In this document: piece by piece, positions 25,350-28,324 of the stretch | Numbering within the stretch: the first letter of the stretch is position 1 | Layout of the letters: each line of letters starts with the position of its first letter | Source: Nitrospirota bacterium | Lineage (GTDB): Bacteria > Nitrospirota > Thermodesulfovibrionia > Thermodesulfovibrionales > UBA6898 | Direction: 5' to 3' | Assembly: GCA_021825365.1 (NCBI GenBank) | Contig: JAKAHR010000009.1 | Location: forward strand, 1-64,000 | Length of the DNA stretch: 64,000 nucleotides | Program-made: the position numbers and the translations under genes | The notes under the pieces: model-generated | Database searches by the model: none | Seen by the model: the letters and a program-made list of their open reading frames with translations, nothing else | Told to the model about the DNA's origin: nothing

Positions 25350-26180
25350 ATGAAGTATATTCCGGCAAGAGGGAAAATGATGGCTGCTGTCCTGGTGGCT
25401 GCTGTCCTTCTGGCGGGGGTTGGTTCTGCCGGCTATTTCCGCTCTGAAGGCGAAAAGAGAGGTGTTCACAAGGTGTTGCTGAAGACAAATGAAATGAATC
25501 ATGCGCCTGTTCCTCCCCTGGATGTCACGGCTCCGGCAAGGACGGATACGGCGACCTTTGGCCTTGGTTGATTCTGGGGGCCTGACTCCCGGTTCGGGAG
25601 TCTGTCCGGTGTGGTCCGGACGAGAGTGGGATATGCCGGAGGGACGAAGAAGGACCCGACGTACCGCAGCCTGGGGGATCATACAGAAACCCTGCAGATC
25701 GATTACGACCCTTCCGTGATATCCTTTGAAGGGCTGCTTGACATCTTCTGGAAGAGCCATGACCCGACGTCCCGGCCATGGTCAAGACAGTACCGGTCGA
25801 TCATCTTGTATCACAATGAGGAGCAGAAGAGGCTTGCCATGGAATCCAGGGACAGACAGGCAGTTCTGCAGAAGAAACCGATAACAACCGAGATCCTCCC
25901 GTTCTCCGCCTTTTACCTGGCTGAAGATTACCACCAGAAGTATCGTCTTCAGCAGGAAGAGGAGATCATGAGGGAGTTTGAGTCGATGTACCCCATATGT
26001 AAAGGCGTCACGGACTCAACCGCCGCTGCCCGGGTAAATGGGTTTCTGGGCGGGTATGGGTCGCCTGATGACCTGAAAAAGGAGATTGGCCTCCTCGGAC
26101 TCTCTGAACAGGGAAAGAAGAGGCTGATACAGATCCTGTCATCGGGCCGGCCGGCCTTCCGCGCCTGTCCGCTGAAGTAG
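25350..26180 (+). CDS. msrA: Peptide-methionine (S)-S-oxide reductase with selenocysteine (TGA) at the catalytic position
   Basis: MsrA reduces methionine-S-sulfoxide in proteins using a catalytic Cys in GCFWG. Here the codon at that exact place is TGA (25569-25571). The frame continues without shift: [18 protein letters not shown], then [21 protein letters not shown] and FWKSHDPT, and late family motifs EDYHQKYRL and [10 protein letters not shown]. This fits a selenoprotein reading G-Sec-FWG, 276 residues from ATG 25350 (or from 25377/25380, which have AAGAGGG before them). The N-terminus has a hydrophobic helix, suggesting export or membrane anchoring. A Cys near the C-terminus (FRACPLK) could resolve the selenenyl intermediate. 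A hairpin follows the TGA. The selenocysteine insertion machinery (selA, selB, selC) is not in the window. Confidence 0.85.
25569..25621 (+). promoter_or_regulatory. Candidate bacterial SECIS element at the in-frame TGA of msrA
   Basis: Twelve bases after the TGA, GACTCCC (25584-25590) pairs with GGGAGTC (25596-25602) around the loop GGTTC, or as 8 bp with loop GTT. The loop starts 19 bases after the TGA and contains G-G-U, as in known bacterial SECIS loops. A second hairpin (GTCCGG with CCGGAC, 25604-25621) follows. The hairpin lies inside the coding sequence, as bacterial SelB-binding elements do. Confidence 0.6.
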
Positions 26181-26232: not shown

Positions 26233-26556
26233 CTACGGTTTTGTCTCTCTTGACTTCAGCACATAGACAAAAAGGTCCTTGCACATCTGGAGCCGTTTGA
26301 GATACACCTTCTTCTGCGATTCGTCAAGCTTCTCGATCTGCGGCTTCAGCCTGTCGCATCTCTCCGAGAGGCTCTTGAGTTCTTCAGCCGGCAGCGTCAT
26401 CGCGTCCTGCGTCTTGCCGCATATCTCGTCAAACTCCTTGCGCCATTCATCCTGCGCGGAGAGCGCCGACGGAATGTAGACATACATGCCGAGGAAGAAA
26501 AGCAGCACGGAAAGGACAGTCGTCACCAGCAACGCGCGTCGCTTCATCATAATCAT
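26233..26556 (-). CDS. Small membrane-anchored helical protein, hypothetical, coupled to a cytochrome gene
   Basis: The 107-residue product has one N-terminal hydrophobic helix (about residues 8-30), then a charged helical domain with three Cys residues that form no haem motif. The ATG at 26556 overlaps the stop of the upstream multihaem cytochrome gene (ATGA), so translation is coupled. The domain probably lies in the periplasm. It may help assemble or anchor the cytochromes, but I do not recognise a family. Confidence 0.6.
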   Translation of the reverse strand: MIMMKRRALLVTTVLSVLLFFLGMYVYIPSALSAQDEWRKEFDEICGKTQDAMTLPAEELKSLSERCDRLKPQIEKLDESQKKVYLKRLQMCKDLFVYVLKSRETKP

Positions 26557-27332
26557 AATTTGTTCCCCATTCCCGGATGGCACCGTTCGCAGTCGTTGAT
26601 CGGAAAGGCCACATTCATATGACAGACGCCGCAGAATTGGCCCTGCACAATATAATCCATTGAGAAGTGCTTGGTTGTCTTCATCTTGATATTGAAGATA
26701 TCAGGGTGGCAGTTGTTGCAGTCGAGCCACCGCGTATGCGCCCTGTGCGGAAAAACGGCGGGAGGGATGTTCAGCATCTCCGCCTCGAGGAGCAGTTTCT
26801 TGCTGAAATTGATGTCTCCCGAAGGCTTGACGGTCAGGAAATTGCGGGGCTTGATCAACTTCTTTTCTATCGCAACCGACCAGTCCCTCTTATTGCCGAA
26901 TTGGGTCCTCGGCAGGTGACCCAGCCTGTTGAAATTCTCCTTGCCATAACTCTTGTCGCCGTTATGGCACTTCTGGCAATTTCCCTCGTCATGGCCGAAG
27001 ACGACGGACCCGTCATGGCAGCCCGCAGCTCCGCAGTAGCGGCCGGACTTGTTCGCCTCTTCCGTTATTTCGGTTGTATTCACCTTCATATTGAATTCCA
27101 GTTCGAAATGGCAAACCCTGCAGGTATGCCTGCGGCGATGGAGCCAGTGCGAAAAGGTGGCTGCCTTTACACCGTTCTTTTCAGAGGTCCTGTTAATAAG
27201 GATATTGCCGTATTCCTCCGGGGGGACGGGGGGAGGATAAAACCATCCCTCCGCCCCCTCCAGGAGGAAGAAGACGAACAGAAGCGCCGGCAGTGCAGCC
27301 TTCCGTATCACTGGACCGGTTTTGTGTGGCAT
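26553..27332 (-). CDS. Multihaem c-type cytochrome (five CXXCH and one CX4CH)
   Basis: The product is about 259 residues with an N-terminal export signal. Haem motifs in order are CRVCH, CGAAGCH, CQKCH, CNNCH, CGVCH and CERCH. The second has four residues between the Cys, as in some cytochromes c3. The arrangement is like cytochrome c7/c3 (class III) proteins, with extra His for bis-His ligation. It should carry electrons in the periplasm. It is a paralogue of the next gene upstream, sharing the order of motifs and the HWIHR/HWLHR and FPLLDCQRCH/FPINDCERCH segments, so it arose by tandem duplication. The start at 27332 overlaps the upstream stop. Confidence 0.85.
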   Translation of the reverse strand: MPHKTGPVIRKAALPALLFVFFLLEGAEGWFYPPPVPPEEYGNILINRTSEKNGVKAATFSHWLHRRRHTCRVCHFELEFNMKVNTTEITEEANKSGRYCGAAGCHDGSVVFGHDEGNCQKCHNGDKSYGKENFNRLGHLPRTQFGNKRDWSVAIEKKLIKPRNFLTVKPSGDINFSKKLLLEAEMLNIPPAVFPHRAHTRWLDCNNCHPDIFNIKMKTTKHFSMDYIVQGQFCGVCHMNVAFPINDCERCHPGMGNKL

Positions 27333-28108
27333 CTCTGACAATCAAGCAGAGGGAAGGCAACGGTGCTGTGGCAGACGCCGCAGTATTTGCCGTCGAATAT
27401 CTCGACCATCGAATACTTGGTCGCTCCCTTTTTGACGCCGACAAAGATCTCGGGATGGCAGAGTTCGCACCCGTTCCATACGGTATGTTTCTTGTGGGAG
27501 AATATGATTTCCGGCATCCCGGCCACCTTCCCGGAAAGTGCAAAATCCTTCTGGGCCGTAAGGGATTGTCTCTTGATCGATACCCCTTCGAGAAAGTCGA
27601 TTATCTTGATCTTTCCGTCTTCTTCGGCCTTCTCCCAGTTGATGCCGTTTCCGAAGCGTTCCTTCGGAAGATCACGGGTGAATTTGATGAAATCATACTC
27701 TTTCCGGACATTCTTGCCATACGAGTGGCAGCGGTCGCACTGTTTCGCGCTATCGGCGACGGCGAGCGTGGAACAGGATGTGAAGACCTTTTCCCCGTCA
27801 AAGGAGCGGGTGCCGTTGTGGCATGATCCGCAATAGTAACCGCTCATGTTGTCAGCTGCCTTGATCCCTGTTCCGCCGGCCTTCATCGCAAAAGCGAGAT
27901 CAACATGGCATAGACGGCAGCTGAACTTGGCCCGGTGAATCCAGTGGTCGAATACAACGGGTGCGAGACCTTTCTTTTCCGAAAAATTGTTCATGACGAC
28001 CCGGCCGTAATCAGCGGGAAGGGGCCTCTTCTTCTTGATGCCGGTCTGGGCCATCGTGACACCCGCTCCGACCATGACGAGCAGCACTACTACAAGGATC
28101 TTCCGCAT
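27308..28108 (-). CDS. Multihaem c-type cytochrome (six CXXCH)
   Basis: The product is 266 residues from the ATG at 28108, with a signal peptide (MRKILVVVLLVMVGAGVTMAQ). Six haem motifs are present: CRLCH, CGSCH, CDRCH, CELCH, CGVCH and CQRCH. The fold is likely of the cytochrome c7/c3 kind. It leads a three-gene operon with a second multihaem cytochrome and a small membrane-anchored protein, and has a good promoter upstream. The operon suggests periplasmic or outer-surface electron transfer in respiration with metals, sulfur compounds or nitrogen oxides. The partner cannot be told. Confidence 0.87.
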   Translation of the reverse strand: MRKILVVVLLVMVGAGVTMAQTGIKKKRPLPADYGRVVMNNFSEKKGLAPVVFDHWIHRAKFSCRLCHVDLAFAMKAGGTGIKAADNMSGYYCGSCHNGTRSFDGEKVFTSCSTLAVADSAKQCDRCHSYGKNVRKEYDFIKFTRDLPKERFGNGINWEKAEEDGKIKIIDFLEGVSIKRQSLTAQKDFALSGKVAGMPEIIFSHKKHTVWNGCELCHPEIFVGVKKGATKYSMVEIFDGKYCGVCHSTVAFPLLDCQRCHTKPVQ

Positions 28109-28169
28109 TGTGTTCCCTCCTGTTTCGTGGTGCAGACGATGAATGTAAAATAACCCTATTTCCACGAGA

Positions 28170-28198
28170 AGTGTAGTGCTTTGTACATGAAAGGTCAA
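28170..28198 (-). promoter_or_regulatory. Promoter of the multihaem cytochrome operon
   Basis: On the minus strand TTGACC (28198-28193), 17 bases, then TACACT (28175-28170). It lies 61 bases before the cytochrome ATG, which has an AGGAGGG ribosome site. Confidence 0.6.
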
Positions 28199-28324
28199 TA
28201 AAAAAGGCATGAAAACGTCCGTTTCAATACAAGAAGGAGGCCGATAGTGGGCGGCTGCTTAAACATGTGATAAGATTATTCTGTAGACGGGTGGATGGTA
28301 TCCCTTACAGGAAAGGCGTCTGAA

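Follow-up and report, generated by a model that had tools for sequence, protein, structure and literature searches.

Selenoprotein MsrA of a Nitrospirota bacterium and a predicted second translation start among its relatives

An MsrA reading frame on the forward strand of a 64,000-nucleotide stretch of Nitrospirota DNA (the window) carries a TGA where the catalytic cysteine codon would be expected. The locus raises the question of whether this codon is read as selenocysteine (Sec) or ends a gene in decay and, if a selenoprotein is made, on which side of the membrane it would act. The original prediction was of a membrane-anchored or exported seleno-MsrA.

The TGA codon and the SECIS hairpin

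Apart from the in-frame TGA at 25569–25571, the MsrA frame is open as far as the TAG at 26178–26180. With TGA read as a residue, the catalytic domain (PF01625) was matched across it, at product residues 74–212 (25548–25964, + strand; E 1e-42), so the predicted continuation of MsrA homology in one frame on either side of the codon was borne out. The product was also aligned, over its residues 73–270 and with E 5e-53, to the Clostridium (Alkaliphilus) oremlandii selenoprotein MsrA (CoMsrA; PDB 4lwj, the solved Sec-to-Cys form, and 4u66; PMC4333827, PMC4479559). The original prediction had placed the TGA exactly on the Cys of a GCFWG motif, and in this alignment it indeed falls onto the catalytic Cys16 of 4lwj, within the sequence GLG-U-FWG. 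The helical domain of selenoprotein MsrA (PF20939; 26016–26111, + strand) scored E 4e-5 and 23.6 bits, 0.1 bit under the cut-off of 23.7, and this C-terminal domain is also contained in the 4lwj alignment, which runs through residue 270. A standard gene caller would cut the seleno-MsrA into two ORFs.

Homologues were aligned at the TGA position, as had been proposed. Genomes of the same taxonomic family and GTDB contigs yielded 90 TGA loci (86 distinct), and 12 more Nitrospirota loci brought the set to 98 distinct TGA-type orthologues. All 98, from many phyla, have TGA at the Sec position, and the earlier description of seleno-MsrA as occurring in "a few algae and bacteria" understated its spread. 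Within this clade, L065, L111, and L121 are three close relatives that have a Cys codon instead, with degraded hairpins; Cys also occupies the catalytic position in the canonical MsrA paralogues of the genomes surveyed. One of these three relatives comes from a record titled Thermoplasmata archaeon.

A hairpin, GACUCCCG-GUU-CGGGAGUC, is located at 25584–25602 (+ strand) and has a stem of 8 bp (25584–25591 with 25595–25602), a 3-nt loop (25592–25594), a folding energy of −12.7 kcal/mol, and a z score of −3.6. It begins 12 nt past the TGA and its loop lies 20 nt past it, in agreement with the 7–8 bp and 12 bases of the original prediction; the G-G-U loop foreseen there was nearly right, the loop being GUU closed by a G-C pair. 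The element agrees with all published constraints on bacterial SECIS elements (model as summarised in PMC13188914), and we found no difference from that model, the loop here being a short GUU. Folding and comparison with SECIS models, a check that had been suggested for this locus, thus supported the assignment. An Rfam scan of the region gave chance matches only and no SECIS family. Because longer stretches around the hairpin fold less strikingly (z −1.2 to −1.9), the case for it rests on comparative tests, namely covariation, a synonymous-codon null, and a control with Cys homologues.

When the window's own peptide was recoded synonymously, an equally good fold arose in just 0.02% of the recodings. 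Across 86 sequences, a mean of 5.57 of the six inner pairs was kept, compared to 3.73 (SD 0.10) in synonymous recodings, whereas the Cys homologues showed no excess (2.11 versus 2.16). In the orthologue alignment, 79.7% of the cells were paired versus 71.0% after shuffling, and the covariation was 0.256 versus 0.111, a value reached in none of 500 shuffles; RNAalifold agreed. Three pairs were changed on both sides, with 59 such cells compared to 20.7 in shuffled alignments (0 of 500), and the two outermost stem pairs were not conserved among orthologues. Codon choice follows the stem as well: the Gly codon at +9 is GGG in 86 of 86 sequences, the Ser/Ala codon at +6 ends in CC in 84 of 86, and Arg CGG is paired with a silent Phe TTC while Gln CAG is paired with TTT (Fisher p 6e-9, relatedness uncorrected). 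The amino-acid pairs Ser...Ser and Ala...Gln/Leu track the stem too, and the RNA therefore shapes the protein sequence.

Selenocysteine machinery and gene neighborhood

The source genome is a draft of 3.26 Mb in 52 contigs and is about 91% complete. Absence of selB and selC, named in the original prediction as grounds for abandoning it, was looked for, and both genes were found, along with selA and selD. The tRNA-Sec (G000:C35:77946-78039) has the anticodon UCA and scored 66.5 bits, over the Rfam cut-off; selB (373.8 bits), the adjoining selA (587.3 bits), and selD (353.1 bits) all exceeded their NCBIfam cut-offs. The machinery accompanies this MsrA in relatives: among 27 genomes of the same taxonomic family, full-length SelB over cut-off was present in 13 of the 13 whose TGA-MsrA match covers the Sec position in the main alignment. 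In a phylum sample of 396 genomes, SelB was matched strongly (E of 1e-99 or lower) in 21 of 21 genomes with this MsrA, the overall frequency of SelB over cut-off being 172 of 396. G005, the sole other genome of the genus sampled, has SelB and gave no match to this MsrA. SelD is itself a known selenoprotein; the selD gene found here (G000:C16:328-1254) has one in-frame TGA, and another contig (G000:C38:13819-14130) contains a further selD match, which is partial and also includes a TGA.

The gene neighborhood was also inspected. Directly upstream of msrA, in the same frame and with no stop between, the window encodes the N-terminal 60 residues of an AlkD-type DNA alkylation repair enzyme (PF08713; 25125–25340, + strand). 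As this is the sole PF08713 match in the genome, we consider the stretch a truncated remnant, and its position upstream in frame indicates that the locus was rearranged. In another locus, L047, a related AlkD stretch lies upstream on the other strand. Downstream of msrA and on the opposite strand, at 26553–28210 (−), two multihaem cytochrome c7/c3-like proteins are encoded. Elsewhere in the genome, matches to a Cys-type MsrA and to MsrB lie side by side at G000:C49:34741-35697 (− strand), each in a 385-aa open frame, and are probably one MsrA-MsrB fusion.

An AlkD remnant abutting the gene in frame and a Cys MsrA with an adjoining MsrB elsewhere in the genome would suit a pseudogene or a sequencing error, with the TGA acting as a true premature stop in a decaying msrA, but the reading frame is unbroken to either side of the codon, the hairpin and the Sec machinery are present, and the TGA recurs in 98 distinct orthologues. 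On the basis of the conserved TGA and the co-varying hairpin, we rejected this very improbable reading. The original prediction had held decay to be the less likely course; since the TGA is conserved in orthologues, decay is now excluded. Another possibility is a changed genetic code in which TGA stands for an ordinary amino acid. Nothing specific speaks for it, and it was likewise rejected, its probability being negligible given that the TGA takes the place of the catalytic Cys and that the genome has a full Sec pathway as well as a SECIS-like hairpin; moreover, of 59 TGA-bridged stretches in the window, none but msrA was convincing by eye. On the basis of readthrough of the frame and the same TGA in orthologues, we conclude that TGA 25569–25571 is almost certainly the Sec codon of MsrA, an identity well supported by the sequence comparisons. 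SelB and Sec-tRNA would be guided to this UGA by the hairpin at 25584–25602.

Anchored form and candidate internal start

The long form of the protein most likely starts at ATG 25380 or 25377. A Shine-Dalgarno (SD)-like AAGAGGG (25367–25373, + strand) precedes these codons, with duplex energies of −5.2 kcal/mol for ATG 25377 and −6.3 kcal/mol for ATG 25380; ATG 25350 would offer a better charged signal n-region but is without an SD. On the basis of these SD scores, and with TGA read as U, the coding sequence of the long, anchored form was placed at 25380–26180 (+ strand). Its hydrophobic N-terminal segment of 21 residues (25377–25439, + strand; KD17 = 2.3) is a candidate signal anchor or signal peptide. 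The window's segment has no lipobox; some relatives have one, and some have a hydrophobic anchor only.

The pN/pS ratio of the N-terminal segment was 0.2–1.1, below 1 in most pairs, and is uninformative alone, so a frame control was used in its place. Among the 97 orthologues with enough upstream DNA, the upstream hydrophobic segment was found in frame 0 in 67 and in the other two frames in 4 and 2. This near confinement to one frame speaks for a genuine long form in most of the family, and the part of the original prediction concerning a membrane-anchored or exported enzyme was supported for that form. It is conceivable that only a short cytoplasmic form is made and that the upstream hydrophobic frame is untranslated, as a good upstream SD is missing in some relatives (−5 is reached by 56% of those scored), certain orthologues exist in the short form alone (e.g., those of Coriobacteriia, Desulforamulus, and several Chloroflexota), and CoMsrA is a 209-residue protein without such an extension (PMC4333827, PMC4479559). 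We regard this as unlikely in view of the frame-0 bias, the lipobox present in many relatives, and the pN/pS values below 1 in most pairs. For the window's gene, an anchored long form is very likely made; its hydrophobic segment would hold the enzyme outside the cytoplasm.

Most relatives carry, in addition, a second SD and start about 30 codons before the Sec codon, from which a soluble cytoplasmic form might also be produced. In the first set of segment-bearing sequences, an ATG was present 20–45 codons before the Sec codon in 55 of 60, usually at −25 to −38 (52 of 60). Purine-rich sites, AGGAGG among them, lie ahead of these internal ATGs, their core being 5–11 nt upstream; the five sequences that lack such an ATG have a GTG or TTG nearby with a strong SD (about −10 to −12). 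Cultured relatives with a clear second start include Desulfosarcina alkanivorans (L076) and Desulfatitalea alkaliphila (L119). The mean internal SD energy was −7.57 compared to −4.48 (SD 0.30) in synonymous shuffles, none of 500 being as good. Ten held-out genomes, fetched once the idea of a second start had already been formed, gave the same picture (−9.79 versus −6.99; 0 of 500). Among 54 further exported-like ORFs of these loci, an internal ATG with an SD of −7 or better was found in 2, compared to 41 of 70 among the seleno-msrA genes (p 1.5e-11, uncorrected for relatedness). On the tree, where looser thresholds were applied, 68 of 101 rows received the two-start label, including one Cys form. 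By the phylum labels in the record titles, these rows belong to Nitrospirota, Thermodesulfobacteriota, Myxococcota, Chloroflexota, Planctomycetota, Acidobacteriota, Bacillota, and Actinomycetota.

In the window's gene, the candidate for the internal start of a short form is the GTG at 25473–25475 (+ strand), 32 codons before the Sec codon, in a region where the starts of relatives cluster (−28 to −33). It follows a candidate internal SD, GAGGTG, at 25459–25464 (+ strand; −7.1). The internal ATG at 25494 has almost no SD. An SD equal to that of GTG 25473 arose in 48% of synonymous shuffles and is thus not better than chance, for which reason we assert the second start at the family level and treat it as no more than a candidate in the window's gene. 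That this organism makes only the anchored or exported enzyme, with the internal start unused, accords with this value and with the poor SD of ATG 25494; on the other side, the majority of orthologues from this taxonomic family carry an internal ATG with a strong SD, and GTG 25473 with its GAGGTG stands at the conserved position. We consider the anchored-only reading possible, at somewhat below even chances, and use of the second start in the window's gene evenly balanced.

Judged from these comparisons, dual start is strongly supported at the family level and only suggestive for the window's gene. The seleno-MsrA of this clade is likely a dual-location enzyme made from one gene, in which the first start would give a form outside the cytoplasm, either anchored or lipid-modified, and the conserved internal SD and start, directly behind the export segment, a cytoplasmic form; the arrangement recurs in at least eight phyla. 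Because most relatives carry the internal ribosome-binding site and start, the description as membrane-anchored or exported is probably incomplete for the family.

A conserved neighbor was also sought. MsrB was found near seleno-msrA in 13 loci and is absent beside the window's msrA. The neighboring MsrBs are mostly cytoplasmic, and the two-start pattern is clear only in L139 and L141, where the msrB upstream of msrA has an internal ATG, with a strong SD, beyond the part that encodes its hydrophobic N-terminus.

The C-terminal tail and known systems

The window's protein has two further Cys residues besides the Sec position, one of which lies four residues from the C-terminus in the tail RACPLK (codon 26166–26168, + strand). 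A C-terminal Cys-Pro tail is present in 28 of the 98 orthologues, and 51 of the 98 have no other Cys. During catalysis, the selenolate would attack methionine-S-sulfoxide, free methionine, and turn into selenenic acid, which the Cys-Pro tail could resolve. By its position and by analogy to 2-Cys MsrA enzymes, the window's tail Cys is probably the resolving residue, and it would form a selenenylsulfide for a thiol reductant.

CoMsrA is a 1-Cys-type enzyme of 209 residues with Sec16 and without any Cys, and glutaredoxin recycles it whereas thioredoxin does not (PMC4333827, PMC4479559); seleno-MsrA is known also from the GOS marine survey (PMC2398784) and current reviews. The window's protein shares with CoMsrA the catalytic Sec in a GUFWG motif and the catalytic and C-terminal helical domains, and it differs in its hydrophobic N-terminal segment, which the published protein lacks, and its C-terminal CPLK tail. 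Its relatives differ from CoMsrA also in the internal second start. The protein does not share the trait "no resolving Cys", which defines the CoMsrA subtype and not the family. As it is of the two-domain type solved for CoMsrA, its kind is already known.

Differently located forms from one gene have precedents. Mammalian MsrA and MsrB3 are targeted through splicing or the choice of first exon (review: PMC6316033); there too, one gene gives forms that differ at the N-terminus, but mainly through alternative first exons, whereas a predicted internal ribosome-binding site would serve in these bacteria. In Salmonella, alternative starts of, for example, yfhG, ompX, and pagC give shorter forms without the signal or lipoprotein segment (PMC11005335). 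The alternative start would similarly drop the export segment here, but the Salmonella cases come from ribosome profiling of one species, whereas the present case concerns one enzyme family in at least eight phyla and is made by comparison only. In the titles, abstracts, and passages searched, which included few subscription papers, no bacterial seleno-MsrA was described as exported or as having a dual start. The window's protein thus belongs to a known kind of selenoprotein, and the family-wide dual-start arrangement looks new.

The results indicate that CoMsrA-type seleno-MsrA is widespread among uncultured bacteria. They also provide a clear example of an RNA element shaping a protein, in which the choices of Ser or Ala and of Ser, Gln, or Leu, together with silent codons, obey the pairs of the stem. 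If the dual-start arrangement is real, annotation would miss one of the two forms, gene callers that choose a single start would hide the arrangement, and one gene would supply methionine repair to either side of the membrane.
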